From: Olsenella sp. An270
GTDB lineage: Bacteria > Actinomycetota > Coriobacteriia > Coriobacteriales > Atopobiaceae
NCBI RefSeq assembly: GCF_002159735.1
Contig: NZ_NFJF01000002.1
Coordinates: forward strand, 1 to 64,000
Reading direction: 5' to 3'
DNA length: 64,000 bases
The position numbers and the translations under genes are program-made. Positions 30,888 through 53,147 of this stretch are shown piece after piece. Numbering within the stretch: the first letter of the stretch is position 1; each line of letters starts with the position of its first letter. The notes below the pieces were generated by a model. That model saw nothing but the letters and a program-made list of their open reading frames with translations. It searched no databases and had not been told where the DNA came from.

Positions 30888-32222
30888 ATGGCGAAGACGC
30901 AAGCGGTGGAGGAGAAGGGGTCCTCCGCGATCCTGTTCCAGCGCGAGGGGATGCCGCCCATCGGCGAGATGCTGCCCTGCGCCCTCCAGCATGTGCTGGC
31001 GTCCTTCGCCGGCATCATCACGCCCGCGATCCTCATCGCGGCCACGTTCAACTTCACTGCCCAGGAGAAGACCGACATCATCCAGGTCGCGCTGATCCTC
31101 TCCGCCATCGACACGGCGCTGCAGGCCTTCGCGCCGTTCCGTCGCATCGGCGGCAACCTGCCGATCGTCATGGGCGTCTCGTTTGCGTTCCTGCCCGCGC
31201 TCCAGGCCATGGGCGCCACGTTCTCCTTTGGCGCCCTGCTCGGCGGCGAGATCGTGGGCGGCATCGCGGCCATCCTCTTTGGCATCTTCTACGGCAAGCT
31301 CAAGGCCTTCTTCCCGCCGGTCGTCACCGGCACGGTGATCTTCACGATCGGCGTCTCGCTCTACCCGACGGCCATCAAGTACATGGCCGGCGGCGAGGGC
31401 ACGCCGCTGTGGGGCACCCCGCAGGCCTGGTGCGTGGCCCTGGTCACGTTTGCCGTGGTCTTTGGCCTCAACAACTTCGCCAAGGGCACCCTCAAGCTCG
31501 GCAGCGTCTTCTTTGGCATGATCGCCGGCATCATCGTGTCCGCGCCCTTCGGCATGCTCGACTTCTCCGCCGTGGGCTCCGCCGGCATCTTCGCGTTCCC
31601 CAAGATCATGCCGTACGCGATCGAGTTCCACCCCGAGGTCTGCATCACGCTCGCCGTGGTCTACCCGATGGTGGCCATCCAGGTCATCGGCGACGTCTCC
31701 GCGGCCTGCCTCGGCGCCATGGACCGCATGCCCGACGAGCGCGAGCTCTCCGGCGCCATCGTCTCCCAGGGCTGCACCTCGCTCGTCTCCGCCTTCATCG
31801 GCGGCCTGCCCACCTCCGCGCTTGGCCAGAACGTGGGCATCATCTGCTCCAACAAGGTCGTCAACAAGTGGGTCTTCGTGACCGTGGCGGCGGTCTTTGC
31901 CGCGGCTGGCCTGCTGCCTCAGCTCTCCGCGCTGCTCACGGCCATCCCGCAGCCGGTCATCGGCGGTGCCACGGTGGGTGTCTTTGGCACCATCACCATG
32001 AACGGCGTCCGCATGTTCACCAAGGACGGCCTCACCCCGCGCGTCACCACGATCGTGGGCACCTCGGTGGTCTTTGGCCTGGGCATCTGGATGGCGTCGG
32101 GCTGCCTCGCGGGCGAGGGCATGCCCAGCTGGGTGACCACTGTTATCGGTTCCAACGCCATCACCCCGGCCGCGCTCATGGCCATCATCCTCAACCTGAT
32201 CCTCCCCAAGCCGGAGGCCTAG
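30888..32222 (+). CDS. NCS2 family purine (xanthine/urate) permease
   Basis: A 444-residue nucleobase:cation symporter-2 with about 12-14 membrane segments. It carries the NCS2 signatures: LPCALQHVLASFAGIITPAI near the N-terminus, GNLPIVMGVSFAFLP, FGGLPTSA-like FIGGLPTSALGQNVGII and AIPQPVIGGATVG. The context (ssnA, ygfK, Mo hydroxylase) points to xanthine or urate uptake; NCS2 sequence alone cannot separate purines from uracil. The ATG at 30888 is behind GAGAGGA. It is the first gene of the operon. Confidence 0.88.
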   Translation: MAKTQAVEEKGSSAILFQREGMPPIGEMLPCALQHVLASFAGIITPAILIAATFNFTAQEKTDIIQVALILSAIDTALQAFAPFRRIGGNLPIVMGVSFAFLPALQAMGATFSFGALLGGEIVGGIAAILFGIFYGKLKAFFPPVVTGTVIFTIGVSLYPTAIKYMAGGEGTPLWGTPQAWCVALVTFAVVFGLNNFAKGTLKLGSVFFGMIAGIIVSAPFGMLDFSAVGSAGIFAFPKIMPYAIEFHPEVCITLAVVYPMVAIQVIGDVSAACLGAMDRMPDERELSGAIVSQGCTSLVSAFIGGLPTSALGQNVGIICSNKVVNKWVFVTVAAVFAAAGLLPQLSALLTAIPQPVIGGATVGVFGTITMNGVRMFTKDGLTPRVTTIVGTSVVFGLGIWMASGCLAGEGMPSWVTTVIGSNAITPAALMAIILNLILPKPEA

Positions 32223-32232
32223 CAAAAAGAGG

Positions 32233-32256
32233 GGCGAGAAGACCGGTCTTCTCGCC
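32233..32256. repeat. perfect 24-bp palindrome made of two uptake-like motifs
   Basis: GGCGAGAAGACC is followed immediately by its own reverse complement, so two copies of the dispersed octamer (32233-32240 and 32249-32256) form a perfect palindrome in the gap between the permease and ssnA. As RNA it would make a hairpin of about 10 bp; there is no U-tract. Confidence 0.85.
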
Positions 32257-32274
32257 GGACAGATAGGAGACGTC

Positions 32275-33618
32275 ATGTTGCTCGTCACCAACGGTCGCGT
32301 CATCACGCGCGACGCTGACAACGCTTACCTCGAGAACGGCGCCGTTGCCATCGATGGCGAGAAGATCGCCGAGGTCGGTGAAGCCGCCGCCCTGGCCGAG
32401 AAGTACCCGGAGGCCGAGGTCGTGGACGCCCACGGCGGCGTCATCATGCCGGGCCTGGTGAACTGCCACACCCACATCTACTCCGGCCTGGCCCGCGGCC
32501 TTGCCATCAAGGGCTGCAACCCCACCAACTTCCTCGAGAACCTCGAGCAGCAGTGGTGGAAGATCGACGACAACCTCACGCTCGACGGCACCCGCGCGAG
32601 CGCCTATGCCACCGTGCTGGACAGCCTGCGCGACGGCGTGACCACGATCTTCGACCACCACGCGAGCTTCTGCGAGATCCCGGGCTCCCTCTTTGCGATC
32701 AAGGACGTCTGCGAGGAGACGGGCATCCGCGCGTGCCTGTGCTACGAGACCTCCGACCGCCGCGGCGACGAGAAGCGCGACCAGGCGATCGCCGAGAACG
32801 CCGAGTTCGCACAGTGGGCCGCCAAGCAGGACTCCGGCATGATCGCCGCGATGTTTGGCGGGCACGCCACCTTCACGCTCTCCGACGAGACGATGGACAA
32901 GATGGCCGAGGCCAACAATGGCCTCACCGGCTTCCACATCCACGTCTGCGAGGGCATGAACGACGTCTGGGACAGCCGGCGGAACCGCGGCGGCATCTCG
33001 CCGATCGAGCGCCTGCTACAGCACGACCTCCTGGGCCCGCGCACGATGCTCGGCCACTGCATCCACGTCACGCCCGCCGAGATGGACATCATCAAGGAGA
33101 CCGGCACCCACATCGTCAACAACCCCGAGTCCAACATGGGCAACGCCGTGGGCTGCGCGCCGGTGCTCGAGTTCTTCCGCCGCGGCATCCCGGTGCACAT
33201 GGGTACCGACGCCTACACGCACGACATGCTCGAGAGCCTCAAGGTCTTCCTCATCATCCAGCGCCACAACGCCGCCATGCCCAACGTGGGCTGGGTCGAG
33301 GCCATGACGATGCTCTTCCAGAACAACCCCGCCATGGCGAGCGCCTACTTCGGGCGCGAGGTCGGCGTCCTGGCGCCCGGTGCCGCGGCCGACGTGATCG
33401 TGATGGACTACCCGGTCTTCACGCCCTTCTCGGACGAGAACATCGACGGCCACATGCTCTTCGGCATGATGGGCAAGAACTGCCGCACCACGATCGTCAA
33501 CGGCAAGGTGCTCTACAAGGACCGCGAGTTCGTGGCCATCGACGAGGAGCGCATCAACGCCTGGACCCTCGAGCAGTCCAAGAAGCTCTGGGGCACGCTG
33601 AACGAGCGCACGTACTAG
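32275..33618 (+). CDS. ssnA: putative aminohydrolase SsnA
   Basis: A 447-residue amidohydrolase-superfamily protein. The metal site begins with GLVNCHTHIYSGLARG (HxH), followed by FHIHVCEG and the Asp in MGTDAYTHDM. SsnA is a guanine-deaminase-like enzyme regularly linked with YgfK and selenium-dependent Mo hydroxylases, and is implicated in anaerobic purine/urate breakdown in gut bacteria; its exact reaction is not firmly established. It lies 52 bp after the permease and 57 bp before ygfK. Confidence 0.93.
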   Translation: MLLVTNGRVITRDADNAYLENGAVAIDGEKIAEVGEAAALAEKYPEAEVVDAHGGVIMPGLVNCHTHIYSGLARGLAIKGCNPTNFLENLEQQWWKIDDNLTLDGTRASAYATVLDSLRDGVTTIFDHHASFCEIPGSLFAIKDVCEETGIRACLCYETSDRRGDEKRDQAIAENAEFAQWAAKQDSGMIAAMFGGHATFTLSDETMDKMAEANNGLTGFHIHVCEGMNDVWDSRRNRGGISPIERLLQHDLLGPRTMLGHCIHVTPAEMDIIKETGTHIVNNPESNMGNAVGCAPVLEFFRRGIPVHMGTDAYTHDMLESLKVFLIIQRHNAAMPNVGWVEAMTMLFQNNPAMASAYFGREVGVLAPGAAADVIVMDYPVFTPFSDENIDGHMLFGMMGKNCRTTIVNGKVLYKDREFVAIDEERINAWTLEQSKKLWGTLNERTY

Positions 33619-33675
33619 ACCGAACTGAGGTCGGCGAGCGGGAGAGGGTCCGCGCGCCGCAGGAGAGGAGCAACA

Positions 33676-36672
33676 ATGAGCGACGTCATGAGGCCGATCC
33701 CGTTCGCGCAGGTCATGGACTGGGTCCTGACCGAGCACGAGACACAAGGCGCCATCTTCGGCGTGCGCAAGGCCTACGTCCACGAGGGCGGTGCCGAGGC
33801 GATCTTTGCCGAGAGGATTGAGACCCCCTTTGGCCCGGCCGCCGGCCCCAACACCCAGCTCGCGCAGAACATCATCGCCTCCTACGTGGCGGGCTCGCGC
33901 TTCTTTGAGCTCAAGACCGTCCAGGTCATGGACGGCGAGGAGCTCTCCGCCTGCGTGAGCAAGCCCTGCATCGTGGCCGAGGATGAGTGCTACAACTGCG
34001 AGTGGTCCACCGAGCTCACCGTGCCCGACGCCTTCGCCGAGTATGTCAAGGCCTGGTGGGCCTGCAAGCTCATCGCCCGCGAGTACGGCCTGGGAGACCC
34101 GGACGGCTTTGTCTTCAACATGTCCGTGGGCTACAGCCTCGAGGGCATCAAGTCCGAGAAGGTCGACCGCTACATCGAGGGCATGAAGGACGCCTCCGGC
34201 ACCGAGGTCTGGGCCGAGTGCCGCGACTGGGCCCTCGCCAACCTCGACCGCTTCCAGAACGTGGACGCAGACTTCGTCAACTCGGTCTCCCCGCAGGTCT
34301 CCAACTCCGTCACCGAGTCCACGCTCCACGGCTGCCCGCCCGACGAGATCGAGCGCATCGCCACCTATCTCATCACCGAAAAGGGCGTGAACACCTACAT
34401 CAAGTGCAACCCGACGCTTTTGGGCTACGACTTCGCGCGCGAGCGCCTGAACGAGCTCGGCTTTGACTACATCGTCTTCGACGACACGCACTTCCGCGAG
34501 GACCTGCAGTGGATCGACGCCGTGCCCATGTTCGAGCGCCTGATCGAGCTCTGCGACGAGAAGGGCCTCGCCTTTGGCGTCAAGCTCACCAACACGTTCC
34601 CGGTTGACGTGACCCGCGGCGAGCTGCCGAGCGAGGAGATGTACATGTCCGGTCGCTCGCTCTTCCCGCTCACGATCGAGCTCGCGCGCCGCATCGCCCG
34701 CCAGTTTGACGGCCGCCTGCGCATCTCCTACTCGGGAGGTGCCGACGCGCGCAACATCCGCGAGCTCTACGCGGCCGGCATCTGGCCGATCACCATGGCC
34801 ACCAACGTTCTCAAGCCCGGCGGCTACGAGCGCTTCTCCCAGATCGCCGGTCTTCTCGCCGGCGCCGAGCGCCTGGACTACGTGGACGTTGATGCCGTGA
34901 CCGCGCTGGCCTCCCGCACCGCCTCCGGCAAGGACTACCAGAAGCCCATCAAGCCGGCCAAGCCTCACAAGGTCGACGCCGAGCTCCCGCTCATGAGCTG
35001 CTTCACCGCGCCGTGCCGCACCGGCTGCCCCATCCAGCAGGACATCCCTGCCTACCTCTCCCGCGTGGACGAGGGCAAGCTCGCCGAGGCGCTCCAGATC
35101 GTCATCGAGCGCAACGCCCTGCCGCACATCACCGGCAACCTCTGCCCGCACCCCTGCGGCGCCAAGTGCGAGCGCAGCTTCTACGAGCCCGAGGGCGCGC
35201 GCATCCGCGAGTCCAAGCTTGCGGCTGCCCGCGGCGGGTTCGACGAGGTCGTGAAGAAGCTCCGCGCCGCTGGTCCTTCTCGCCTCGCCTCTGCTGCCGA
35301 TAAGAACGTGGCGGTCGTGGGCGGCGGCCCGGCGGGTCTCGCCACCGCGTTCTTCCTCACGCGCGCCGGTGCCAAGGTCACCATCATCGAGCGCACCGAC
35401 AAGCTCGGCGGCGTGGCGCGCCACGTCATCCCCGAGTTCCGCATCTCCGACGACGACATCGACAAGGACGTGGCGCTCTGCCTCGCCTTTGGCGCGCAGG
35501 TCCAGATGGGCCGCGAGGTCACGAGCGTGGCCGAGCTCTTCGACGAGGGCTTCACGGACGTCGTGGTCGCCACGGGCGCGTGGGCGCCGGGCAAGGTGGG
35601 CCTCAAGGCCGGTGAGGAGATCGACGTCCTGGAGTTCCTCGAGGCCGCCAAGTCCGGCGAGCCCATGGACCTGGGCACCGACGTCGTGATCGTGGGCGCC
35701 GGCAACACCGCCATGGACGCCGCGCGCGTGGCCAAGCGCGCCGAGGGCGTCAAGAACGTGCGCATCGTCTACCGCCGCACCAAGAAGGAGATGCCGGCGG
35801 ACGAGGAGGAGCTGCAGCTTGCCCTGGAGGAGGGTGTGGAGCTCTGCGAGCTTCTCGCCCCGATTGGCGTGGCAGGCGGCCAGCTGGCCTGTGAGGTCAT
35901 GCGCCTCGGCGAGCCGGACGAGTCTGGCCGTCGCCGTCCCGAGCCCACGGGCGACACCATGGACGTTCCGGCCACGGCCGTGATCTGCGCCGTTGGCGAG
36001 CAGATCGAGCGTGGGCTCTACGAGGGCGCGGGGGTCGAGGTTGACCGCCGCGGCCGCCCGGCTGGCACCGCTACCGGCGTGGACCACGTCTGGGCCGCCG
36101 GCGACTGCCGTCGCGGTCCGGCCACCTTTGTGGAGGCCATCGCCGACGCGCAGGCCGTGGCCCGCGACCTGGCCGGCGTCGACTTCAACGCCTACGCCGC
36201 CCAGAACGTCCGCGCCGACAAGCTCGACGCCATCATGGCGCGCAAGGGCGACATTTGCCTCGACGTCGCCGGCTGCACGACGAGCCGCTGCCTGGGTTGC
36301 GCCACCGTCTGCGAGGTCTGTTGCGACGTCTGCCCCAACCGCGCGAACGTTGCCATCAAGGTGCCGGGCCTCGCGCAGCAGCAGGTCGTCCACGTGGACG
36401 GCATGTGCAACGAGTGCGGCAACTGCGCCGTCTTCTGCCCGTGGAGCGGCCGTCCATACAAGGACAAGCTCACGCTCTTCTGGAGCGCGGAGGACATGGA
36501 CGCGAGCGAGAACCGCGGCTTCCTGCCGCTGCCCGACGGACGCGTCCGCGTGCGCCTGGCGTCCGGCGAGGGCACCTACGACGTGAGCGACGCCGCCTGC
36601 GGCCTGCCCGAGGACGTGCGCCTCACCATTGCCGCGGTCCGCGACGACTACGCCTACCTGCTGGCCAAGTAG
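33676..36672 (+). CDS. ygfK: YgfK, putative selenate-reductase-type Fe-S flavoprotein
   Basis: A 998-residue multidomain oxidoreductase. The N-terminal half is dihydropyrimidine-dehydrogenase/DHOD-like (to about residue 430), then cysteine motifs CFTAPCRTGCP and CPHPCGAKCE of the GltD type, an FAD motif VVGGGPAGLATAFFL (about 545), an NAD(P) motif VIVGAGNTAMDAARV (about 670), and C-terminal [4Fe-4S] clusters (CLGCATVCEVCCDVCP at about 870; CNECGNCAVFCP at about 912). The name comes from E. coli; current evidence links it to purine/urate catabolism. It probably links NAD(P)H to an acceptor via the ferredoxin that follows. Confidence 0.93.
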   Translation: MSDVMRPIPFAQVMDWVLTEHETQGAIFGVRKAYVHEGGAEAIFAERIETPFGPAAGPNTQLAQNIIASYVAGSRFFELKTVQVMDGEELSACVSKPCIVAEDECYNCEWSTELTVPDAFAEYVKAWWACKLIAREYGLGDPDGFVFNMSVGYSLEGIKSEKVDRYIEGMKDASGTEVWAECRDWALANLDRFQNVDADFVNSVSPQVSNSVTESTLHGCPPDEIERIATYLITEKGVNTYIKCNPTLLGYDFARERLNELGFDYIVFDDTHFREDLQWIDAVPMFERLIELCDEKGLAFGVKLTNTFPVDVTRGELPSEEMYMSGRSLFPLTIELARRIARQFDGRLRISYSGGADARNIRELYAAGIWPITMATNVLKPGGYERFSQIAGLLAGAERLDYVDVDAVTALASRTASGKDYQKPIKPAKPHKVDAELPLMSCFTAPCRTGCPIQQDIPAYLSRVDEGKLAEALQIVIERNALPHITGNLCPHPCGAKCERSFYEPEGARIRESKLAAARGGFDEVVKKLRAAGPSRLASAADKNVAVVGGGPAGLATAFFLTRAGAKVTIIERTDKLGGVARHVIPEFRISDDDIDKDVALCLAFGAQVQMGREVTSVAELFDEGFTDVVVATGAWAPGKVGLKAGEEIDVLEFLEAAKSGEPMDLGTDVVIVGAGNTAMDAARVAKRAEGVKNVRIVYRRTKKEMPADEEELQLALEEGVELCELLAPIGVAGGQLACEVMRLGEPDESGRRRPEPTGDTMDVPATAVICAVGEQIERGLYEGAGVEVDRRGRPAGTATGVDHVWAAGDCRRGPATFVEAIADAQAVARDLAGVDFNAYAAQNVRADKLDAIMARKGDICLDVAGCTTSRCLGCATVCEVCCDVCPNRANVAIKVPGLAQQQVVHVDGMCNECGNCAVFCPWSGRPYKDKLTLFWSAEDMDASENRGFLPLPDGRVRVRLASGEGTYDVSDAACGLPEDVRLTIAAVRDDYAYLLAK

Positions 36673-36681
36673 CTTTCGTGC

Positions 36682-36716
36682 GACCCGCGGGCCGAGGTCC
36701 TTCTCGCCCGCGGGTC
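36682..36716. repeat. hairpin with uptake-like motif in the loop
   Basis: GACCCGCGGGC (36682-36692) pairs perfectly with GCCCGCGGGTC (36706-36716). The loop contains GGTCCTTCTCGCC, a copy of the dispersed motif. It lies between ygfK and the ferredoxin gene and could attenuate or stabilise the transcript. Confidence 0.7.
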
Positions 36717-36739
36717 TCGTACGCAAGGAGGGGAGAGAC

Positions 36740-36952
36740 ATGGACGACGAGCTCAAGCGCATCTGGGTCGCCGACGAGGGCTGCATAGGCTGCCGCCTCT
36801 GCGAGCGCGCGTGCCCCACCGGTGCCATGCGCGTGGAGGACAAGCAGGCGGCAATCGACTACGCGCTCTGCATCGCGTGCGGCATGTGCGCCACCAAGTG
36901 CCGCAAGGGCGTCATCCACGACACGCTGGGCATCTACGCCCCGGCCCAGTAG
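36740..36952 (+). CDS. 2x[4Fe-4S] ferredoxin
   Basis: A 70-residue bacterial ferredoxin with two CxxCxxCxxxC motifs: Cys15/18/21/25 (CIGCRLCERACP) and Cys44/47/50/54 (CIACGMCATKCRKG). The usual Pro after the last cysteine of the second cluster is Arg, which may shift its potential. It sits 11 bp before the molybdenum hydroxylase and after ygfK, so it is the likely electron carrier between them. The start is ATG at 36740 behind AAGGAGGGG. Confidence 0.93.
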   Translation: MDDELKRIWVADEGCIGCRLCERACPTGAMRVEDKQAAIDYALCIACGMCATKCRKGVIHDTLGIYAPAQ

Positions 36953-36963
36953 GGGAGGAGACC

Positions 36964-39738
36964 ATGGCAGCTGGAACCGCCGTCAAGGCACCCGCCGAGT
37001 ACCGCTTCACCGTCAACGGCGAGGAGCAGGTCGTCACATGTGACAAGCCGCTCCTTCGCTACCTGCGCGACGAGCTTCATCTCACCTCCGTCAAGGACGG
37101 CTGCTCCGAGGGCGCGTGCGGCACCTGCACCGTGCTCGTGGACGATCGCGCCACCAAGGCGTGCGTCCTCACCACGCGCCTTGCCAACGGCCGCGACATC
37201 GTGACCGTGGAGGGTCTGCCCCACGAGGAGCAGGAGGCCTTCGTCTACGCGTTCGGCGCGGTGGGTGCCGTGCAGTGCGGCTTCTGCATCCCCGGCATGG
37301 TCATGGCGGGCGCGGCCCTCATCCACAAGGTGCCCGACCCCACCGAGGACCAGGTCAAAGTGGCCATCCGCGGCAACGTCTGCCGCTGCACCGGCTACAA
37401 GAAGATCATCGAGGGCATCCTGCTCGCCGCCGCCATCCTGCGGGGCGAGAAGAGCATCGACCCCGAGCTCGAGCGCGGCGACGACTACGGCGTGGGCAAG
37501 CGCGCCTTCCGCGTTGACGTGCGCCGCAAGGTCCTGGGCTTTGGCAAGTACCCCGACGACATCGACGAGCGCGACTTCCCCGACCTCACCTACGCCAGCG
37601 CCGTGCGCTCCAAGTACCCGCGCGCCCGCGTGGTCAAGATCGACGCCGAGAAGGCCCGCGCCATGCCGGGCGTCCTCGCCGTGCTCACGGCCGCCGACGT
37701 GCCCGTGAACGCGGTCGGTCACCTGCTCTACGACTGGGACGTCATGACGGCCGAGGGCGACGTCACCCACTGCGTGGGCGACGCGATTGCCCTGGTGGTG
37801 GCTGAGGACGCCGCCACGCTTGAGAAGGCCAAGAAGGCCGTCAAGGTGGAGTACGAGGTTCTCGAGCCCGTCCGCTCCATCGAGGAGGCCCGCGCCGAGG
37901 GCGCGCCTGTGCTCCACAAGCCCTACCTCGCGTTTGGCAACTGGGTCACGCCCGAGAACAACATCTGCCAGCAGCGCCACGTGGTCCGCGGCGACGCTGC
38001 CGCGGCGCTCGCGGGCGCTGCGCACAAGGTGACGCGCACCTTCAAGACGCCGTTCACCGAGCACGCGTTCCTCGAGCCGGAGTGCGCCGTGGCCTTCCCG
38101 TACAAGGACGGCGTGAAGGTCTGCTCGTCCGACCAGGGCGCCTACGACTCCCGCAAGGAGATCGCCCACATGCTCGGCTGGGACGCCACGCCGGAGCGCG
38201 TGGTCGTGGAGACCATGCTCGTGGGCGGCGGCTTTGGCGGCAAGGAGGACGTCTCCGTGCAGCACCTGGCCGCACTCGCCGCGCTCGCCGTGAACCGTCC
38301 GGTCAAGGTGCGCCTCACGCGCCAGGAGTCCATCAACTTCCATCCCAAGCGCCACTACATGGAGGGCACCTTCACGCTCGGCTGCGACGAGGACGGCACC
38401 TTCGTGGGCCTGGACTGCGAGATCAACTTCGACACCGGCGCCTACGCGAGCCTGTGCGGCCCGGTCCTGGAGCGCGCCTGCACGCACTCCGTGGGTCCGT
38501 ACTGCTACCAGAACACCGACATCCGCGGTTTTGGCTGGTACACCAACAACCCGCCCGCCGGCGCGTTCCGCGGCTTCGGCGTGTGCCAGAGCGAGTTTGC
38601 GCTCGAGAGCCTGATCGACCTTCTCGCCGACGAGGTGGGCATCTCCCCGTGGGAGATCCGCTACCGCAACGCCATCGAGCCGGGCAAGGTCCTGCCCAAC
38701 GGCCAGATCGCCGACCGCTCCACCGCCCTCAAGGAGACCCTGCTCGCGGTGCGCGACGTCTACGAGGCGCATCCCGGCCACGCCGGCCTCGCCTGCGCGA
38801 TGAAGAACGCGGGCGTGGGCGTGGGCCTGCCCGACGCCGGCCGCTGCAAGATCCGCGTGGAGGACGGTCGTGCCGTGGTCTACTCCGCCACTTCCGACAT
38901 CGGTCAGGGCTGCAACACCGTCTTCCTGCAGGACGTTGCCGAGGCCACCGGACTTCCGCTCGCAAACATCGTGAACGGCGAGTGCTCCACCGAGAACGCG
39001 CCCGACTCCGGCACCACCTCGGGCTCGCGCCAGACCCTCATCACCGGTGAGGCCGTGCGTGGCGCGGCGTTCCTGCTACGCGACGCCATGCTCGCGGTGG
39101 AGGAGGGGACCGAGACCGGCACGGAGCCCGTGGTGGCCCACGGCGACGGCTTTGTGGTGGAGTACGCCGACGGCACACCCTACGTGGGCCCGGGCGCCGG
39201 CTACCACGCGCAGGACCCGGTGGCCGCGCTGGCCGCCCTCGAGGGCCGCGAGTTCTCCTACGAGTACCTCGAGAAGACCGACAAGCTCGGCGCGGACGTG
39301 CCCAACCCCAAGAGCCACGTGGCCTACGGCTACGCCACGCATGTGGTGATCCTGGACGACGACGGCCGCGTGACCGAGGTCCACGCTGCGCACGACTCCG
39401 GCAAGGTGGTGAACCCCATCGCCATCCAGGGCCAGATTGAGGGCGGCGTGCTCATGGGCATGGGCTACGCGCTCACCGAGCGCTTTGACCTGGAGGACTG
39501 CGTCCCGCAGGTGAAGTTTGGCATGCTGGGCCTCTTCCGCGCGCCGGACATCCCCTACATCAACGCCATCTACGTCGAGAAGGACGAGCTGCTCGACGTG
39601 GGCTACGGCGCCAAGGGCATCGGCGAGATCGCCACGATCCCCACCGCGCCCGCGGTCCAGAACGCCTACCGTGCCCTCACCGGCGAGCTCCAGACCGAGC
39701 TCCCGCTGCGTCACTCGTACTACGCACGCGAGAAGTAG
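36964..39738 (+). CDS. selenium-dependent-type xanthine dehydrogenase ([2Fe-2S]-Mo fusion)
   Basis: A 924-residue molybdenum hydroxylase. The N-terminal [2Fe-2S] domains have Cys47/52/55/67 (GCSEGACGTC) and the second cluster (QCGFC, CRCTGY at about 106-143); from about residue 175 it is the molybdopterin-binding subunit, with VGGGFGGKED, AFRGFGVCQ and the active-site Glu in KGIGEIATIP. There is no FAD domain and no selenocysteine; in this class selenium is a labile ligand. It probably oxidises hypoxanthine/xanthine or reduces urate. A strong terminator follows. Confidence 0.92.
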   Translation: MAAGTAVKAPAEYRFTVNGEEQVVTCDKPLLRYLRDELHLTSVKDGCSEGACGTCTVLVDDRATKACVLTTRLANGRDIVTVEGLPHEEQEAFVYAFGAVGAVQCGFCIPGMVMAGAALIHKVPDPTEDQVKVAIRGNVCRCTGYKKIIEGILLAAAILRGEKSIDPELERGDDYGVGKRAFRVDVRRKVLGFGKYPDDIDERDFPDLTYASAVRSKYPRARVVKIDAEKARAMPGVLAVLTAADVPVNAVGHLLYDWDVMTAEGDVTHCVGDAIALVVAEDAATLEKAKKAVKVEYEVLEPVRSIEEARAEGAPVLHKPYLAFGNWVTPENNICQQRHVVRGDAAAALAGAAHKVTRTFKTPFTEHAFLEPECAVAFPYKDGVKVCSSDQGAYDSRKEIAHMLGWDATPERVVVETMLVGGGFGGKEDVSVQHLAALAALAVNRPVKVRLTRQESINFHPKRHYMEGTFTLGCDEDGTFVGLDCEINFDTGAYASLCGPVLERACTHSVGPYCYQNTDIRGFGWYTNNPPAGAFRGFGVCQSEFALESLIDLLADEVGISPWEIRYRNAIEPGKVLPNGQIADRSTALKETLLAVRDVYEAHPGHAGLACAMKNAGVGVGLPDAGRCKIRVEDGRAVVYSATSDIGQGCNTVFLQDVAEATGLPLANIVNGECSTENAPDSGTTSGSRQTLITGEAVRGAAFLLRDAMLAVEEGTETGTEPVVAHGDGFVVEYADGTPYVGPGAGYHAQDPVAALAALEGREFSYEYLEKTDKLGADVPNPKSHVAYGYATHVVILDDDGRVTEVHAAHDSGKVVNPIAIQGQIEGGVLMGMGYALTERFDLEDCVPQVKFGMLGLFRAPDIPYINAIYVEKDELLDVGYGAKGIGEIATIPTAPAVQNAYRALTGELQTELPLRHSYYAREK

Positions 39739-39764
39739 CTCCGCTTCCTCGCACATCCCTTGCA

Positions 39765-39808
39765 GAGGGCCCGCCGGTTTGCCATGCCCGGCGGGCCCTC
39801 GTTCTTCT
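39765..39808 (+). terminator. rho-independent terminator of the purine operon
   Basis: GAGGGCCCGCCGG (39765-39777) pairs perfectly with CCGGCGGGCCCTC (39788-39800), followed by GTTCTTCTCGG, a variant of the dispersed motif that also supplies the U-rich tail. Confidence 0.85.
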
Positions 39809-40336
39809 CGGCTCCTCGCTTGCCCGGCCGCCCGCCCGCCTGAGCATCCATCGCGTCAAAACGGACAAAAGGCCGAGAAAACCGCCCGATTCTGTCCGTT
39901 CTAACGCGATGGATGCCAGGCGCCCCGTTTTTCTCGCTGTTGGGCGTGCTCGCGCCCGTCGCTCGTTCCATCCCGTGCCTCGAGTCTGCTCTCGCGGAGT
40001 CTGCTCCTTGCGGCTCCGTTCGCCGGACGTGCGGCGTCGGCATGTGCGGCATTTTTCTCGTTCATTACCGCCTCGAGCGGTGCTTGGGCAAGATTCGTGA
40101 GACTCCCGCCGATCTCCTCGACAAACTCGAGCATCGAGAGCGCGCCTTGTGGCAGAGAGCCCAGGGTGACTTTTGTTTCCGATTATTCTTCTTGGATGAA
40201 AGAGGATTCAGGTCGGAGGCCGCTTCATTTCCAAGCTTACCGTACATCACAATTCGCGAAACGATTGTCCGTATAAAGCAATACAGCACTGAATGTGATA
40301 ATATCACATTCAGTGCTGTATTGAGGAGGGATACAG
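39809..40336. other. gene-free junction with two long inverted repeats
   Basis: No credible ORF. An inverted repeat (CATCCATCGCG... at 39845-39867 against 39893-39915, 21 of 23 matching) flanks a motif variant. At 40279-40323 a 45-nt palindrome with a single central base (arms 40279-40300 and 40302-40323, both perfect; core TGTGATAATATCACA) ends exactly at the GAGGAGGG ribosome-binding site of the RloA-like gene. This region marks the left edge of the accessory island. Confidence 0.7.
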
Positions 40337-41683
40337 ATGCTGCTGAACTTCACTCTGAGCAATTGGATGTCCTATCGTGATGAAGCTTCCCTCAGTATGA
40401 TTTCCTCGCTTGAGCGGCAGCATGGGGAGACTCGCTCGGAGCTTCCGGGCTTTCGGAGCAAGAAGATCCTCCCAGTTGCTGCCGTGTACGGCGGCAACTC
40501 TTCCGGAAAGACTGCCCTCTTCAAGGGGCTCGCTGCGCTTCGCGAGATGGTCCTTACTGATCCTGGGGTGGACGGTCTGCTTCCCATTCGGCCTTTCATG
40601 CTTGACTCTCAGTCTTCGATGAGTCCGACGATGTTCGACATCACTTTCCTTGCCGGGAGGACGACGTATCGGCTTGTGGTTGAAGCTACGCGCTTCTCCG
40701 TCTCCTATGAATGCCTTGAGATAGTCAAAGAAGGCCAATCGATAGACGTTTATGAGCGCGACGCATCTCGCGATGAGCGTTTCCAGCTCAACAGAGAGCT
40801 TTTCAGCGACCCCGATCACGTACTGTACGCCGCAAAGAGCACTCGAAGTAATCAGGTTTTTCTCGGGGCGGGATTCTCCCAAAACATTGATGAGTTAAGA
40901 GAGCCTTTTGGGTGGTTTGCCGAGACTCTCGAGCTGGTGGGTGTTGAGTCGCAGGCCTGGTCGTTTGCCACGGCAGCGACCGACCGCGAGGACTTCCTCC
41001 GATATGCGGGTGAGGCGCTCTCGCGAATGGACACGGGGATATGTGGCTTGGTTGGAGAACGGGTTGAAGTTGATGCCCTCCCACCCGACGCTCGTCTGCT
41101 CAAGAGGGCATCGGAGCTCAAGGAGGATGAGACTATCACCGTCGTTGTCGACAGGGCTCCCGGCGACTACGGGTTCGAGATGCTCTCGGTTCGCGGCGGC
41201 GATTCCCGGCCGGATGTCCAGAGGCTTAGAACACTTCATCGTGGCCCCGACGGCGAGGAGCACTCTTTTGGACTAAGCGCGGAGTCCTCCGGAACCCAGA
41301 GGCTCATGGGCCTACTCCCCATGCTGTTCGACCTCTCTGGCGAGAGTGGTTCACACGGCTCAAAGGTTTTTGTGGTGGACGAGCTTGACCGCTGCTTTCA
41401 CACCATGCTCACCTCCCGTCTCATAGAGGACTTTCTCGCGACGTGCGGGCCCGACAAGCGAAAGCAGCTCCTCTTTACGACACACGACCTTCTTCTCATG
41501 GACCAGTCGCTCATGCGCAGGGACGAGATGTACATCGCCCAGCGAGGGTCAGATGGGCGGTCCCAGATTGTTGCCCTGAGCGACTTCGAGGGGATTCGCT
41601 TTGACAAGGACCTGATCAAGAGCTACCTCGAGGGGCGCTTCGGCGGTATCCCGATGCTGGGTGAGGTGTCCGACCATGGGTAA
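40337..41683 (+). CDS. RloA-like AAA ATPase, putative phage defence
   Basis: A 448-residue SMC/ABC-type AAA ATPase (AAA_15/AAA_21 class). It opens with LLNFTLSNWMSYRDEASLS, Walker A at about residues 52-59 (GNSSGKTA), signature-like ESSGTQRLMGL, Walker B VFVVDELDR (about 350) and FTTHDLLLMDQ. Such ATPases pair with RloB or other TOPRIM-like nucleases in abortive-infection systems. The start is ATG at 40337, directly after a 45-nt palindrome. GC is lower than in the flanking chromosome. It overlaps rloB by 8 bp. Confidence 0.87.
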   Translation: MLLNFTLSNWMSYRDEASLSMISSLERQHGETRSELPGFRSKKILPVAAVYGGNSSGKTALFKGLAALREMVLTDPGVDGLLPIRPFMLDSQSSMSPTMFDITFLAGRTTYRLVVEATRFSVSYECLEIVKEGQSIDVYERDASRDERFQLNRELFSDPDHVLYAAKSTRSNQVFLGAGFSQNIDELREPFGWFAETLELVGVESQAWSFATAATDREDFLRYAGEALSRMDTGICGLVGERVEVDALPPDARLLKRASELKEDETITVVVDRAPGDYGFEMLSVRGGDSRPDVQRLRTLHRGPDGEEHSFGLSAESSGTQRLMGLLPMLFDLSGESGSHGSKVFVVDELDRCFHTMLTSRLIEDFLATCGPDKRKQLLFTTHDLLLMDQSLMRRDEMYIAQRGSDGRSQIVALSDFEGIRFDKDLIKSYLEGRFGGIPMLGEVSDHG

Positions 41684-42272
41684 GAGGAAGAACAATACGC
41701 TGGTAAGGCAGACGGGGCGGCGTGCCTATCGCCCCGTCTGCTGGGTCTCAGCCGAGGGTGCCACCGAGCGAGACTACTTCCGTATGGCGGTTTTCAAGGA
41801 TGCCCGTGCCTCCGTGAAGTATCCGAAAAACGTCCATCCTTCAAGGAGAAATCCCGCAGCGGTTCTCAAGAGACTCCAGAAGGAAATCGGGTCCGAGGAG
41901 CTTAGGGATGGAGATGAGGCGTGGGTTGTCGTGGACGTAGATGACTACGAGGGCGAGCTCGGTGATCTTCTCGAGTGGTGTGACAGTCATCCGGGTTTCC
42001 ACCTCGCAGTGAGCAATCCAAAGTTCGAGCTGTTCCTCGTCATGCATTTTGAGAAAGCCAACGGATGCACGACAGCGGCAAAGGTCGACGCTGCCCTTAA
42101 ACGTCACATGCCCGGGTACGATAAGCGCCTGACTCCGACGCAGTTCTCGCTCGAAGACGTGAGGGGTGCGATAGCAAACGCGAGAGAGAAGCGCGTTGCC
42201 CGTGCGGATGAGTTACCCGGGCCCGGGATGACGGATGCGTTCAAGTTGGCGGAGAGTTTGCTAGGAGTATAG
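41676..42272 (+). CDS. RloB-like TOPRIM nuclease
   Basis: A 198-residue RloB family protein. The TOPRIM acidic residues are visible: Glu27 in SAEGATERDYF and Asp87/Asp89 in VVVDVDDYEG, plus the RloB-typical SNPKFELFLVMHF. RloB is the probable effector of an RloA-RloB (AbiL-like) system that acts on nucleic acid when the ATPase senses infection. The ATG at 41676 lies inside the end of rloA, indicating tight coupling. Confidence 0.87.
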   Translation: MGKRKNNTLVRQTGRRAYRPVCWVSAEGATERDYFRMAVFKDARASVKYPKNVHPSRRNPAAVLKRLQKEIGSEELRDGDEAWVVVDVDDYEGELGDLLEWCDSHPGFHLAVSNPKFELFLVMHFEKANGCTTAAKVDAALKRHMPGYDKRLTPTQFSLEDVRGAIANAREKRVARADELPGPGMTDAFKLAESLLGV

Positions 42273-42273
42273 G

Positions 42274-43221
42274 TTGATTGCGAGAAGCCTTCTTGATGGG
42301 TTTACGGAGAAGCTTGAATTTGAGACCGTGTGGCAGCTCAAGCTTTACGACGGTGAGGTGTATCACTACTCCTCACTGGGGAACGTCAATCCCATCCTCT
42401 TGGGCGAAGAAGGCCTATGCCTCTGGGCGAGCAGGATTGACTGTTTGAACGACGCTTCCGAGGGGACGCTGCCCGTAATTCGGTTCGCCCAGGCCTGCGA
42501 CGAGCTTAAGGCCGCTGGGAGAATTGACGAGAGTTTCTACGAATTGATCAGAGATGTTCGTCCCAACCGCACCGGGCTTATCCTCTATACGGCAAGCGGA
42601 AAGACTCGTCCGGTGAGAGATGAGTTCAAGACGTACGTCACCTCTTTTTCTGAGGACCCTGACGCGCTGGCAATGTGGAACTACTATTCCAAGGGCAACC
42701 GATATGAGGGGATGAATATAGGAGTCTCTTCTCGCGACTTGCTGAATTCTCTCAGCTCACGCCAAAACCAAGACGGAACCATGATGGCGCTCATGGTGAA
42801 GGTGATATATGACGAAAGAGAGCAGCTTGAGCTAATCGAGAGGGCACTCCTCGATTTGTATGAGAACTACGAACAGGGCTATGGGGGACACGTTAGATAT
42901 CACATCGGAACGTTACTCAGTAATCTGAAGCCTGTCTTTAAGTACGCCTGCTTTTCCCACGAGAAGGAGGTGCGCTTGTTCGTCAACGTGTACAACAAGC
43001 TTGAATCTGGGGTGCGTGTTGAGTACAGAACCTGTGCCGGATACGTGGTTCCCTATGTCTCCCTCAACTTTGACAGGGCTGTTGTTTCTCGGATAACGCT
43101 TGGACCGAGTCTTGGAAGCGATGATCAGAAGGCTGTGCAGAAAAAGGTCGTTGAGGAGATGCTGAAGAGCTGTGGCTATCGAGCCGCGGTTGAGCAGTCG
43201 AACATTCCCGTGAGATACTGA
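42274..43221 (+). CDS. DUF2971 family protein, third gene of the RloAB operon
   Basis: A 315-residue protein with the DUF2971 pattern: VYHYSSLGNVNPILLGEEGLCLWASRIDCLNDASEG near residues 28-65 and YVTSFSEDPDALAMWNYYSKG at about 114-134, then VRLFVN. Biochemical function is not known to me. The start is TTG at 42274, one base after the rloB stop, so it is translated with RloAB. It may be an accessory or regulatory part of the defence system, or a separate cargo gene. Confidence 0.75.
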   Translation: MIARSLLDGFTEKLEFETVWQLKLYDGEVYHYSSLGNVNPILLGEEGLCLWASRIDCLNDASEGTLPVIRFAQACDELKAAGRIDESFYELIRDVRPNRTGLILYTASGKTRPVRDEFKTYVTSFSEDPDALAMWNYYSKGNRYEGMNIGVSSRDLLNSLSSRQNQDGTMMALMVKVIYDEREQLELIERALLDLYENYEQGYGGHVRYHIGTLLSNLKPVFKYACFSHEKEVRLFVNVYNKLESGVRVEYRTCAGYVVPYVSLNFDRAVVSRITLGPSLGSDDQKAVQKKVVEEMLKSCGYRAAVEQSNIPVRY

Positions 43222-43447
43222 GTTACACACGAACGATGTTTTCACAGAGTATATCGAGTGGCCTTGACCTCAGAAAATATTTAAAGTTTCTTAGGAGCTC
43301 GAGGGTGCAGCATCGGCATTCAGGCGAGAAGAGCGACGGTTTGATGCTGCGTAGCCGACCCGTGCACCGCGCCAATTCCCCACGTGCCAGATGAACCATG
43401 CCGACAAACGCTGTTGGTAAGGACGGCTAGCTGCATTCACGCAGAAA

Positions 43448-43492
43448 CTATAGGAATACGTTGGTGTCGAGCGCAACTTTACGCCGGCTCAT
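43448..43492 (-). pseudogene. remnant of a PIN-domain toxin gene
   Basis: Overlapping the end of the 99-codon gene by 14 bp (ATG at 43492, its stop at 43479), a frame reads MSRRKVALDTNVFL and then stops. VALDTNVFL is the characteristic beginning of PIN-domain toxins, including the first catalytic Asp. None of the three frames to the left resembles the remainder of a PIN domain, so the body of the gene has been deleted. Confidence 0.65.
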
Positions 43493-43778
43493 GGTAGGGC
43501 TCCATCCTCTTGAGCTCGAGCGTAGCTCTGTCGAGGATGAGCGTCTTATAGGTGCGCAGTGACTTTGGGCTTGTAGTGAGTCCTGCAAGGGCCGTTGCCG
43601 GAAGATCGCTTCCGAGGACGTAACCAACAACGACGCGCCAGCTGGTTTCGTCCTCGCTCAACTCGATGCCCTCGAGAGCTGCGTACCTGGCCTCCGGGAT
43701 GAGCTCCACGAGAATCTCAACCGCTCTCTTTGCTGCTGCCTGCGCCGACGAGACGTCCATGACGAGTCCTCCAACCAT
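43479..43778 (-). CDS. probable antitoxin partner of a lost PIN toxin (99 aa)
   Basis: An alpha/beta protein with an N-terminal helix (AQAAAKRAVEILVELIP), the strand pair YAALEGIELSEDETSWRVVVGY and a C-terminal RTYKTLILDRATLELKRME. This pattern is known from small proteins encoded immediately upstream of PIN-domain genes. A shorter start (MDVSSAQ, 43760) has an even better ribosome-binding site (GGAGG). Its toxin is reduced to 14 codons, so the gene is likely a relic or a solitary antitoxin. Confidence 0.65.
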   Translation of the reverse strand: MVGGLVMDVSSAQAAAKRAVEILVELIPEARYAALEGIELSEDETSWRVVVGYVLGSDLPATALAGLTTSPKSLRTYKTLILDRATLELKRMEPYHEPA

Positions 43779-44380
43779 GTCGTTCCTTTCTCTTCAAGTG
43801 TAGCGCGCTCGCGTTCAAGCTCTTGAGGTAGTTCCTCATGAAGCCTCCGTGCCTCCATTGAGGGGTAAGACCCTAGCACGGAGGCGGTAGGCCTTGTCTT
43901 GCAGTTGTCTTCCACGTAGCTGCGTTCCCAGCTCAAGACAGTTGAGAAGGACATATGGTTCGAATCTCTATCGACAGACGGTCGGGTTTCGTGTGTCACC
44001 GGTAGACAAGTTGCCTTGGGTGCAAATCGTTGCGTCGCGCGTCCGCACAATGGGTGTCGGGGACAGCGAACGGCATAGTCGCCGTCAAAATGGCTTGCTG
44101 GAAGAAGCGCTTGTGGACAGCGAGGGCCAGGAGTTCGCGACGCTCGCGACTTTACCGCCAAATCTTTACCGCCAGTGGCGGTAAAACCCTATCGGAGCGT
44201 GGAGGACAAGATTATTCTGCTGAGAATTATTCTGCGGAGAATAATCTTGCAGCCGAGAAGAACGCGGCGCTTCAAGCGCTGCCCATCAATCAACGCTCCC
44301 GTCACGCTACGGAAACACAGGTAGGGCAAAGTTACCCTTTGTGTAGCTGAAACTGCCCGCGCCCCGTCGAGAGGCCCTCC
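43779..44380. other. gene-free region with palindromic sites
   Basis: No supported gene. TTTACCGCC occurs at about 44151 and at 44165-44173, the latter forming a perfect hairpin with GGCGGTAAA (44177-44185, 3-nt loop). CAAGATTATTCT (44207-44218) is mirrored by AGAATAATCTTG (44238-44249), with a further ATTATTCTGC inside. A GGTTCGAATC at 43957 looks like a tRNA T-arm but nothing around it folds as a tRNA. The region looks like an operator cluster whose gene has been lost. Confidence 0.5.
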
Positions 44381-45835
44381 ATGTTCGACTTCTTCATGTC
44401 CGCCATCACCGCCCTGAACGACAACGTGCTGTGGGGCGTCCCCATGGTCGTGCTGATGCTCGGGACCGGCGTGTTTTTGCTCTTCGTCACCCGCGGCGTC
44501 GTGTTCACGCGCTTCAACGTGGTCATGCGCTACACCACCAAGACGCTCTTCCAGCGCCCCGACCCGTCGGAGGCGGGGGAGGGCACCATCTCGCCCTTCC
44601 AGGCGGTGTGCACCGCGCTCGCGGCGACGCTCGGCACCGGCAACATCGTGGGCGTGGCGCTTGCCGTGGCCACGGGCGGTCCGGGCTCGATCTTCTGGCT
44701 GTGGCTCTCCGCGCTGGCTGGCATGGTCATCAAGTTCTGCGAGGTCACGCTCTCGGTGGCCTACCGCACCCGCAACGAGCGCGGCGAGATCGTGGGCGGC
44801 CCCATGTACTACATCTCCCGCGGCCTAGGGCTTGGCTGGCTCGCGATGCTGTTCGCCGCCTTCGGCTTCCTCGCGTCCTTTGGCATCGGTGCGAGCGTGC
44901 AGGCCAACTCGCTTGCCGGCAGCGTGAACGCCACCTTCGGGGTGCCGCTGCCCGTCATCGGCGCTGTGGTGGCGCTGCTTGCGGGACTGGTCCTCATCGG
45001 CGGCATCACCCGCATCGCGCAAATTACCGAGAAACTCGTGCCCTTCGCGGCCATCTTCTACCTGCTCGGCGCCGCGGCGGTGCTCGTGGTCAACGCCGGC
45101 GAGATCCCCGCCGCGATCGCCCAGATCTTCCGCGACGCCTTCACCGGCACGGCCGCCACGGGCGGCTTTTTGGGCGCCACGGTCATGTATGCGTGCCGCG
45201 TGGGCATGTCGCGCGGCGTGTTCACCCACGAGGCGGGCATGGGCTCGGCGCCCATCGCGCATGCCTCGGCCGACACCGACCACCCCGCCCGCCAGGGCCT
45301 GTGGGGCACCTTCGAGGTGTTCTTCGACACCATCGTCATGTGCACGATCACGGGCCTCGTGATCATCACCTCGGGGCTGTGGCATGCCGACCCCATGATG
45401 TCCGAGGGCGCCATGAGCTCGGCGGCCTTTGGGCAGAGCATCCCCGGCGGCCAGTACATCGTGACCGTGGGCCTCATGCTCTTCGCGTTTGCCACGCTCA
45501 TCGCGTGGTACTACTACGGCGAGAAGTGCGTCGAGTACCTCTTCCGCAAGAGCCGCGCCCAGCGCGTGGCCGTGCGCGTCTACCAGGTCGCCTACGTCGC
45601 CATGGTGTTCGCGGGCTGCGTGACCAACCTCGACGTGGTGTGGGAGTTCGCCGACTGCTTCAACGGCCTCATGGCGATCCCGAACCTCATCGCGCTGATC
45701 GCGCTCTCGCCCGTGATCCGCCGGCTTGCGGCGGACTTCTTCCGCGATCCCGACCGCCGACGCCCGCGCGACACGGACTACAGCGGGATGCTGGTGTTTA
45801 GGGATGGTGAAAGCGAGCAGACGCGCGACGAATAG
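44381..45835 (+). CDS. alanine/glycine:cation symporter (AGCS family)
   Basis: A 484-residue sodium- or proton-coupled amino-acid symporter with about ten to eleven membrane segments. Hallmarks: GEGTISPFQAVCTALAATLGTGNIVGVA, GGPGSIFWLW, GGPMYYISRGLG, RGVFTHEAGMGSAPIAHA and the C-terminal LIAWYYYGEKC. The high GC and codon use match the core genome rather than the surrounding island. It is a single gene; the substrate is inferred from the family. Confidence 0.94.
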   Translation: MFDFFMSAITALNDNVLWGVPMVVLMLGTGVFLLFVTRGVVFTRFNVVMRYTTKTLFQRPDPSEAGEGTISPFQAVCTALAATLGTGNIVGVALAVATGGPGSIFWLWLSALAGMVIKFCEVTLSVAYRTRNERGEIVGGPMYYISRGLGLGWLAMLFAAFGFLASFGIGASVQANSLAGSVNATFGVPLPVIGAVVALLAGLVLIGGITRIAQITEKLVPFAAIFYLLGAAAVLVVNAGEIPAAIAQIFRDAFTGTAATGGFLGATVMYACRVGMSRGVFTHEAGMGSAPIAHASADTDHPARQGLWGTFEVFFDTIVMCTITGLVIITSGLWHADPMMSEGAMSSAAFGQSIPGGQYIVTVGLMLFAFATLIAWYYYGEKCVEYLFRKSRAQRVAVRVYQVAYVAMVFAGCVTNLDVVWEFADCFNGLMAIPNLIALIALSPVIRRLAADFFRDPDRRRPRDTDYSGMLVFRDGESEQTRDE

Positions 45836-46135
45836 CTCGCCGGTCAGTGGTTGCCGGATGTACCTTTGGATGTACGAAATACAAGAGGGCGGCCGTCGGG
45901 AGCCTTTCCCGGTGACCGTCTTTCACATTCGCTATGCATATGATGCCATGCGCGGGCAGGCGGTAACCGCAGCCGCCCTGGACGCACGCCGGCCGACGCA
46001 GCAGCGGTGACGTCTATGGGAAAAGAGCTCCCGCAACCCGTACGCCTCTCACCAATCGACGGCGCGCCGCACGTCGCATGCGATGCGGCGGGTAGACTTG
46101 CGTCAAGCCACCCTGATCCGAAGGAAGCGATTGCC
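45836..46135. other. intergenic region before lipoprotein gene
   Basis: About 300 bp without a convincing gene. A 50-codon frame from 45857 lacks a ribosome-binding site. A -10-like TAGACT at 46093-46098 lies about 40 bp before the lipoprotein start and is its likely promoter. Confidence 0.4.
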
Positions 46136-46738
46136 ATGACCAAGCGTCACATCGTAGCGCCCATCCTCGCCGGCGTCCTCGCATGTGTGCTCACGGCGTG
46201 CTCGGTCGCGCCCAAGGCTCCCGAGAGCGAGCCGACGCAGACCGCCGTGACCGCTACTGCCGTAGGGAACACCGAGGCGCCAGAGCCAGAGGAACCGCCC
46301 CAGCCGACCTACATGCGCGTGCCCAACGTCACCGCCGACACCGTGCAGGAGGCCGTGACAGCTCTCGAGGACGAGGGCTTCAGCGTCGTCACTGTGAGTG
46401 ACTGGAGCAGTTATTACACGGACGGTCACGTCGCCGCGCAGCGCCCGTCGGGCTACGCCCCGGAGGGCGCCTGCGTCACGCTCACGGTCTCGCTCGGCGC
46501 CAATCCCTACACGGTCGACAACGGCCCCCAGACGCGCAACATCCCCGGCGTGCGCGGCTATCCCGTCGAAGAGGCGCTCGAGGACCTCGAGGAGCACGAC
46601 TTCGAAGTGACCAGCATCGACGGCCCCGAGGACGGCGTCGCGACCTACTACGAGGTCACCGGCACAGGACCGTTCTCGGCGATACTGCACACGTGTCCCG
46701 CATCCGGTGGCACCTACGACGTGTCTGCGTCAAGCTAG
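46136..46738 (+). CDS. PASTA-domain lipoprotein
   Basis: A 200-residue secreted lipoprotein: signal peptide with lipobox LTAC (Cys22), a Pro/Glu-rich linker (about 30-58), then one clear PASTA domain (MRVPNVTADTVQEAVTALED..., about 59-125) and a second, weaker repeat beginning NIPGVRGYPVEEALEDLEE (about 138). PASTA domains bind muropeptides or beta-lactam-like ligands. The ATG at 46136 is behind AAGGA. Confidence 0.82.
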   Translation: MTKRHIVAPILAGVLACVLTACSVAPKAPESEPTQTAVTATAVGNTEAPEPEEPPQPTYMRVPNVTADTVQEAVTALEDEGFSVVTVSDWSSYYTDGHVAAQRPSGYAPEGACVTLTVSLGANPYTVDNGPQTRNIPGVRGYPVEEALEDLEEHDFEVTSIDGPEDGVATYYEVTGTGPFSAILHTCPASGGTYDVSASS

Positions 46739-46812
46739 ATGCAAAGCGAGTAGCACAAAAAAGCGCCCGGCCTCTTATGAGGTCAGCTGATATTCTATTC
46801 GGCTTCATTCAC

Positions 46813-47277
46813 CTATGTGAGGAACTCGCCTGTGTCGAGGTCGACGAAGTCTGCGAGACAGATCTTCGCGTGGAAGTCATCGCCATATTCGCCGGCTCTC
46901 GTCTGCTCGTCGAACTTGAACGAGACGTTATAGAGTCGTCCGGCCTTGGTGCGTCTCACGAGGTTATGTCCCAGCAGAAACTCAATCGCACGGTGGTGCG
47001 CTTTGGCATCGTCGCCGTTCAGATAGAAACAGCAGACACCCGTGCCACTGCGCGACAGCGCCATGTGAGCAGCCGTGCTGCGCTTCGCCTCGATGACCGC
47101 ACCCGTGATGACAGCCTCGCGAACCAGTTTTTCAGCGTGCTCGAGATCGGCGGTCATATACATCCACTTGCCGCAGCGCTTCAGATTGAGCTCGTTCACA
47201 CGCTCGGTGTCGATGTAATAGACCCAATTCTGATTCTCGTCGCGGATGACGCCATCGGCTATGACTTCGATGTTCAT
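46813..47277 (-). CDS. conserved hypothetical protein (154 aa)
   Basis: A soluble alpha/beta protein without signal peptide. It opens with VIRDENQNWVYYIDTERVNEL and has CGKWMYM, VITGAVIEAKRST, GVCCFYLNGDDAKAHHRAIEFLLG and a C-terminal ADFVDLDTGEFLT. GKWM and a later lysine/arginine stretch faintly recall DUF1917 (phosphothreonine-lyase-like) proteins but the match is too weak to name. It stands alone, converging with the PASTA lipoprotein. Confidence 0.65.
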   Translation of the reverse strand: MNIEVIADGVIRDENQNWVYYIDTERVNELNLKRCGKWMYMTADLEHAEKLVREAVITGAVIEAKRSTAAHMALSRSGTGVCCFYLNGDDAKAHHRAIEFLLGHNLVRRTKAGRLYNVSFKFDEQTRAGEYGDDFHAKICLADFVDLDTGEFLT

Positions 47278-53145: not shown

Positions 53146-53147
53146 TT

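Follow-up and report, generated by a model that had tools for sequence, protein, structure and literature searches.

Opposed copies of a dispersed, uptake-sequence-like word pair between genes in Thermophilibacter-type Atopobiaceae but are seldom found at terminator-like gene ends

Dispersed uptake sequences are known from Neisseria and the Pasteurellaceae, and the accessible parts of three papers on these systems (PMC2397512, PMC3630211, PMC1852404) were used for comparison. The neisserial DUS, GCCGTCTGAA, exists in several dialects and also in a paired-terminator form, and its density is given in the accessible text of PMC2397512 as about one copy per 1.15 kb. According to the accessible sections of PMC1852404, the uptake word is present in approximately 55% of the terminators of Neisseria and the USS (AAGTGCGGT) in 16 to 29% of the predicted terminators of Pasteurellaceae, and close pairs of copies in the same orientation are rare in both groups. 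From our own sums of rows of Table 4 in the same source, 231 opposed pairs within 10 nt are found among the 1,874 copies of N. meningitidis. A preliminary description of the DNA analyzed here had proposed that a dispersed motif forms hairpins at gene ends in a parallel manner, with inverted motif pairs used as terminators. The analysis presented below indicates that the pairs themselves are real and that the Neisseria-style reading of them is mostly wrong.

The window, a 64-kb stretch of DNA, comprises the beginning of a 400,769-bp contig (C7) of a 2.01-Mb genome in 14 contigs. Its ssnA-like protein is 92–99% identical to the proteins of loci L041–L055, recorded under Thermophilibacter, 'Olsenella' and uncultured Atopobiaceae, and hits in G055, a genome of the genus, have coordinates identical to those in the genome of the named T. 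gallinarum locus (G138); the host group is accordingly treated here as Thermophilibacter-type Atopobiaceae. The main sample of the window's genome covers 864 kb (the window, C7 64001–384000 and C1 1–480000), and the gene-context survey of pairs covered 43% of the genome. Together with T. gallinarum (G138), T. provencensis (G136), T. mediterraneus (G137) and two further genomes (G092 and G052), the window's genome forms a set of six genome samples. Genes were called with our own caller, for which stops are exact, starts are approximate and some calls are wrong, such as the weak call at 39720–39971 that overlaps the motif copy at 39801. Copies were counted with the core word CGAGAAGRAC, using the reversed word as a control. 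The six samples contain 631 intergenic core copies, of which 609 remain after a gap filter.

The family of words around CGAGAAG is among the strongly enriched words of the 864-kb sample, where the motif has the strand-symmetric consensus G[G/C]CGAGAAG[A/G]AC; 95% of the 422 GGCGAGAAG copies have a C three positions later. In the whole 2.01-Mb genome, the core word occurs 979 times, 492 and 487 times on the two strands, compared with 29 copies of the reversed control. This corresponds to about one copy per 2 kb, with 451 copies in the 864-kb sample and 31 in the window. The word is enriched in all 31 congeners searched (255 to 1,517 copies), and even the lowest of these, G092, has about five times the count of its own control. 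In a sample of 121 genomes of the family, the 11-mer GCGAGAAGAAC greatly exceeds the control in 15 of the 16 that belong to the genus, the sixteenth being G092 with 27 copies; in the other genera, its counts are clearly higher than the control in a few and close to it in most. In G092 and G052, the CGAGAAG core is retained with looser ends. Among the open-licence literature matches listed, as judged from titles and abstract openings, there is no report of this motif. The motif is similar to the neisserial DUS in its presence on both strands, intergenic enrichment, genus-typical distribution, comparable density and the occurrence of some opposed pairs. The initial view of it as dispersed and uptake-sequence-like is borne out by abundance, strand symmetry and intergenic enrichment. 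A short, abundant word concentrated in one genus might instead be a Chi-like or FtsK-orienting (KOPS-like) site. The near-identical counts on the two strands make this hardly credible, and in 22 segments, on contigs that are unordered, the orientation of the motif follows neither the strand of the genes nor the GC skew.

The distribution of the word relative to genes points to a signal in DNA. Of the 451 copies in the 864-kb sample, 283 lie within called genes, at a density of 0.36 per kb; densities in convergent, co-directional and divergent gaps are 2.1, 2.27 and 0.99 per kb, respectively. Synonymous codon shuffling within called genes leaves 10.0 antisense copies where 131 are observed, and 97.6 sense copies where 152 are observed. 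The antisense excess over synonymous shuffles, which is present in all six samples, implies that selection or drive acts at the DNA level, although part of the in-gene excess is not specific to the motif, because reversed control words likewise exceed the shuffles, approximately 1.3 to 2.6 fold in the six samples. In low-GC, possibly foreign DNA of this genome, there are 1.75 copies per 8 kb compared with 4.27 elsewhere, a figure based on only four counting windows. Positions 40000–56000 of the window have a GC content of 0.60 (0.68 in the sample) and carry 3 and 2 motif copies per 8 kb, the mean being about 4.

Sense copies cluster ahead of gene starts and antisense copies past stops. Taken with the antisense copies found in terminator tails, this polarity could suggest a word that acts in RNA, resembling a Shine-Dalgarno sequence ahead of starts and supplying a U-rich tail past stops. 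We consider such a role very improbable: the orientation bias near 5′ ends equals that of shuffled words (0.69 and 0.70), tails attract control words equally, and the antisense excess inside genes is strong. The 5′ polarity was accordingly rejected as a translation signal, being matched by shuffled words. Near gene 3′ ends, the antisense share is 0.70 compared with 0.54 for shuffled words, mainly in the window's genome. This bias past stops would be compatible with a binding site of a chromosome-organizing or regulatory protein, or of a recombination enzyme, spread by selection on binding, as would strand symmetry, action at the DNA level and enrichment between genes. The dense in-gene copies in both orientations would be unusual for a regulator, and we regard the binding-site explanation as rather unlikely.

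All five sites at which the preliminary description had placed motif hairpins in the window were recovered at their positions and with their sequences. At 32233–32256, there is a perfect 24-bp palindrome, GGCGAGAAGACCGGTCTTCTCGCC, consisting of two opposed off-consensus copies (CC for the consensus AC). It starts 10 bp past the stop codon of a Xan_ur_permease gene (xanthine/uracil permease family, 30888–32222, plus strand) and ends 18 bp ahead of the start codon of an amidohydrolase gene (Pfam Amidohydro_1, 32275–33618, plus strand), which we take to be ssnA-like, so that the proposed location of pairs at gene ends holds loosely here. Genes for a flavin/Fe-S oxidoreductase (33676–36672) and a molybdenum hydroxylase (36964–39738), both on the plus strand, come next, and the whole same-strand series at 30888–39738 is apparently a purine-degradation operon. 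The predicted hairpin folds at −18.4 kcal/mol (z −2.65). In a consensus scan, a T-tail was found on the minus strand only, the neighboring genes being on the plus strand; as the scan gave 6 sites compared with 3.6 in shuffles, it is weak evidence either way for this site.

From the 80 loci obtained in the search with the ssnA-like protein, 19 near relatives were chosen for comparison. In 11 of these, the 20-bp inner palindrome is present with the same spacing to the start codon (−39 or −40). Four others (L053, L054, L055 and L095) have one or two motif copies nearby, and the remaining four (L047, L050, L052 and L088) have no motif copy within 60 nt and contain GGGGACTGTCCCC palindromes instead. 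The palindrome is absent from 21 more distant loci, one of which (L060) has a single copy. Both CGAGAAG cores are invariant across 12 aligned palindromes. In the stem, 9 of 11 pairs are invariant; among 9 distinct sequences, pairing is lost in 4 at the innermost, central position and in 2 at one outer position. Two covariation cells changed on both sides, a number reached by 37 of 500 shuffles. Invariant cores together with an often unpaired central position fit the conservation of two motif copies no less well than that of a stem.

Palindromic repeats of another type, GGGACAG/CTGTCCC with variable ends, occupy the places of the window's motif hairpins in relatives (L042, L043, L046, L047, L050–L053, L088, L089 and L095), either close to the ssnA-like gene or in the gap that corresponds to 36673–36739 of the window. 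In Collinsella-type genomes (L059, L062–L064, L066 and L067), a conserved leader, CCGAGGTGTTAAACCCCGCCTTAGA, is located just before the ssnA-like gene, with variants in L071 and L074. An Rfam comparison of six sources, among them L059 and L071, gave no match at the gathering score.

Two of the other sites also consist of opposed copies. At 63663–63684, in the gap that separates the gene for a PLP-dependent enzyme from the plus-strand gene that follows, two opposed consensus copies form CGAGAAGAACGGGTTCTTCTCG, with a weak predicted fold (−12.6 kcal/mol, z −1.74). An exact copy at 16693–16703 (plus strand), directly past the stop codon of a class II fructose-bisphosphate aldolase gene, and an opposed exact copy at 16775–16785 (minus strand) bracket a motif-free, terminator-like hairpin (−30.6 kcal/mol) that is followed by ATTTTAT; for the bracket as a whole, the predicted folding energy is −55.8 kcal/mol (z −6.2). 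Adjoining this pair, at 16797–16858, is a perfect inverted repeat with 28-bp arms around AAAAAA; its word CACCTTTGTCAGG is one of the 12-mers that are most strongly enriched in the sample of T. provencensis.

The two remaining sites are strong plus-strand hairpins with an antisense motif copy, which had been described as lying in the loop or tail. At 36682–36716, the copy (36697–36706) extends across the loop and also the 3′ arm, and at 39765–39808 the copy (39801–39810) forms the tail just past the stem. The enclosing segments 36673–36740 and 39760–39815 fold at −38 kcal/mol (z −3.25) and −32.1 kcal/mol (z −3.49), respectively. Of 20 relatives with at least 89% identity over the query, 6 retain the 36682 hairpin, and most of the other 14 carry different palindromic repeats at the equivalent position.

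Relative to the density of single copies, close inward pairs are modestly in excess between genes. In the six samples pooled, 22 intergenic inward pairs with a gap of 0–21 nt were found compared with 7.2 under random intergenic placement, or with approximately 10.4 after the pairing rate of permuted control words is added (Poisson p of about 0.001, our own sum). Among 139 permuted control words, there are 45 such pairs in 8,552 copies, compared with 22 in 609 for the motif, a ratio that overstates the excess because the permuted words are rarer. Perfect palindromes with a gap of 6, counted in genes and gaps, number 9 compared with 1.69, and G052 has 6 inward pairs compared with 0.4 expected, several of them with GGG...CCC extended arms. 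At 22–60 nt, inward pairs are below expectation (7 compared with 10.5).

Pairing at short range is also frequent in one of the same-strand arrangements. For gaps of 0–21 nt, there are 5 outward pairs (7.4 expected), 7 >> pairs (6.2 expected) and 30 << pairs (8.2 expected), 22 of the last being from the window's genome. Therefore, close pairing is not peculiar to opposed copies. Over all genome sequence, genes and gaps together, inward pairs of the core word do not notably exceed same-strand pairs, and the whole genome of the window contains 7 strict inward pairs with a gap of 0–21 nt. The excess of inward pairs between genes is real but small. Unlike in N. meningitidis, only 3 opposed pairs within 10 nt (2 inward and 1 outward) are found among the 451 copies of the 864-kb sample, and, unlike in Neisseria, close pairs in the same orientation are not rare.

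A gene end was scored as terminator-like, by a home-made definition applied to all six samples, if a hairpin with a T-rich tail was present at most 300 nt past the stop, and 243 of 1,579 gene ends qualify. Hairpins formed by an opposed pair, with both orientations of the word inside, are present at 2 of these 243 ends; at one further end, in the window's genome (C1 178069), one copy is in the hairpin and an opposed copy in the tail. The core word is in the hairpin at 6 ends and in the tail only at 13 more, or 19 of 243 for hairpin and tail combined. Past stops, the core word is inside hairpins in 90 of 467 cases compared with 17 of 80 for reversed controls, and antisense copies are in hairpin tails in 28 of 278 cases compared with 6 of 44, the controls being few in both comparisons. 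A single antisense copy was also considered as a terminator tail and rejected, as reversed control words behave alike. On inspection, few of the listed inward pairs are followed by T-rich sequence; pairs that do look like terminators include T. gallinarum 184693, with an ATTTTAT tail, and one pair in G052.

Like the USS of Pasteurellaceae, the dispersed word is thus found in a minority of terminators. The values differ strongly from the share of about 55% in the accessible data for Neisseria, to which the 6 of 243 hairpins correspond, and from the 16–29% for Pasteurellaceae, to which correspond 6 of 243, or 19 of 243 with tails; our definition of a terminator differs from that of TransTermHP, which makes both comparisons approximate, though the difference is large. 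Co-option of inverted motif pairs as intrinsic terminators, as in Neisseria and Pasteurellaceae, would account for the inward pairs between genes, the gap-6 palindromes, the pairs of G052 and single T-tailed cases such as that of T. gallinarum. It is nevertheless very unlikely as a general explanation, since so few terminator-like ends have an opposed-pair hairpin, the core word is in hairpins and tails no more often than controls, the 32233 palindrome stands amid same-strand genes with its T-tail on the other strand, and strict inward pairs number just seven in the entire genome. General use as paired terminators, as suggested in the preliminary description, is not supported by these counts.

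A different type of pairing is more prominent. Outward pairs of the core word 61–200 bp apart number 64 compared with 24.5 expected (six samples, intergenic), whereas in the same range the other orientations are all below expectation (inward, 14 compared with 24.5; >>, 11 compared with 21.8; <<, 12 compared with 27.1). Long inverted repeats lie within many of the outward pairs, and what is enclosed falls into several unrelated kinds. Among copies located where intergenic inverted repeats end, outward ones outnumber inward ones by 40 to 9 (the window's genome) and 20 to 7 (T. gallinarum); the corresponding figures for the remaining four samples are 4 and 5, 6 and 5, 2 and 1, and 0 and 6. The outward bias in the window's genome is weaker where gaps lack inverted repeats (56 compared with 34) than where they contain them (114 compared with 30).

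These counts would be explained if the word were the terminal inverted repeat of small mobile palindromic (MITE-like) elements, and in two of the six genomes there is indeed a likeness to MITE/REP elements, outward pairs enclosing palindromic intergenic elements of 60–200 bp. Unlike in MITE/REP families, the word is also found outside such elements, and the sequences that its pairs enclose are not of one kind but of several. Most copies are solitary, more than half lie in called genes, and the outward bias is absent from four samples; we therefore consider a MITE-like origin of the word unlikely. For insertion polymorphism (empty sites) of bracketed elements, the 153 motif-bearing gaps provided just 2 orthologous gap pairs, which is too few. 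Other intergenic repeat words, often arms of long palindromes, are present on C7 and C1 of the window's genome (G000), namely AACTCGTACACTC, GGTTATGCG, GAACCCAAACC and AAGGGCGGCGATT (for example at L003, L008 and L022).

We interpret the motif as a strand-symmetric, dispersed tag acting at the DNA level, most likely in the role of an uptake-type sequence, a reading to which we assign a probability of roughly one half. Tagged DNA would be preferentially taken up or recombined, and the word would spread by drive wherever the sequence tolerates it, becoming densest between genes. Inverted pairs would then be mainly a consequence of the high density of intergenic copies and of the many palindromic elements around them, and both the small excess of fused inward palindromes and the larger outward excess around palindromic elements may be by-products or occasional co-options. 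The antisense bias past stops and the outward bracketing are not predicted by a plain uptake tag.

Candidate uptake genes are widespread in the family. ComEC is present in 119 of 121 family genomes, and an HHH_3 domain match was found in all 31 congeners, in the window's genome about 700 bp from the ComEC match and on the same strand; neither HHH_3 nor ComEC is specific to motif-rich genomes. ComEC and a secretion ATPase (T2SSE) are also found in motif-poor genera and so do not track the motif. Unlike in Neisseria, the N_methyl (PF07963) pilin signature, a short profile that divergent pilins may escape, was detected in none of 16 members of the genus and in 22 of the 121 genomes of the family sample, and a ComP-like receptor is therefore not in evidence. 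Among the secretion ATPases listed, those of the genus have much weaker scores than the PilB-like ones found in some other genera (about 1e-52 compared with 1e-120), and we take those of the genus to be Tad/CpaF-like. In an actinobacterium, Micrococcus luteus, DNA uptake through Flp pili is described in the accessible parts of PMC4322843 and PMC6370729. The literature searched yielded no uptake experiment on the species considered here.

More tentatively, and with some doubt, we hypothesize that the word is a true DUS in Coriobacteriia that is recognized by an apparatus lacking a canonical type IV pilus and whose copies bracket palindromic intergenic cassettes, which would be exchanged whole between strains as tagged units. 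That apparatus could perhaps be a Tad/Flp-type pilus with ComEA and ComEC.

The result is thus a correction: a dispersed tag can form pairs between genes without being taken over as terminators, and tagging and terminator use, which are joined in Neisseria, come apart here. If the role as an uptake tag is true, self-DNA recognition would extend to high-GC Gram-positive gut bacteria that have no obvious type IV pilin, and the question of the receptor would become testable in these bacteria.
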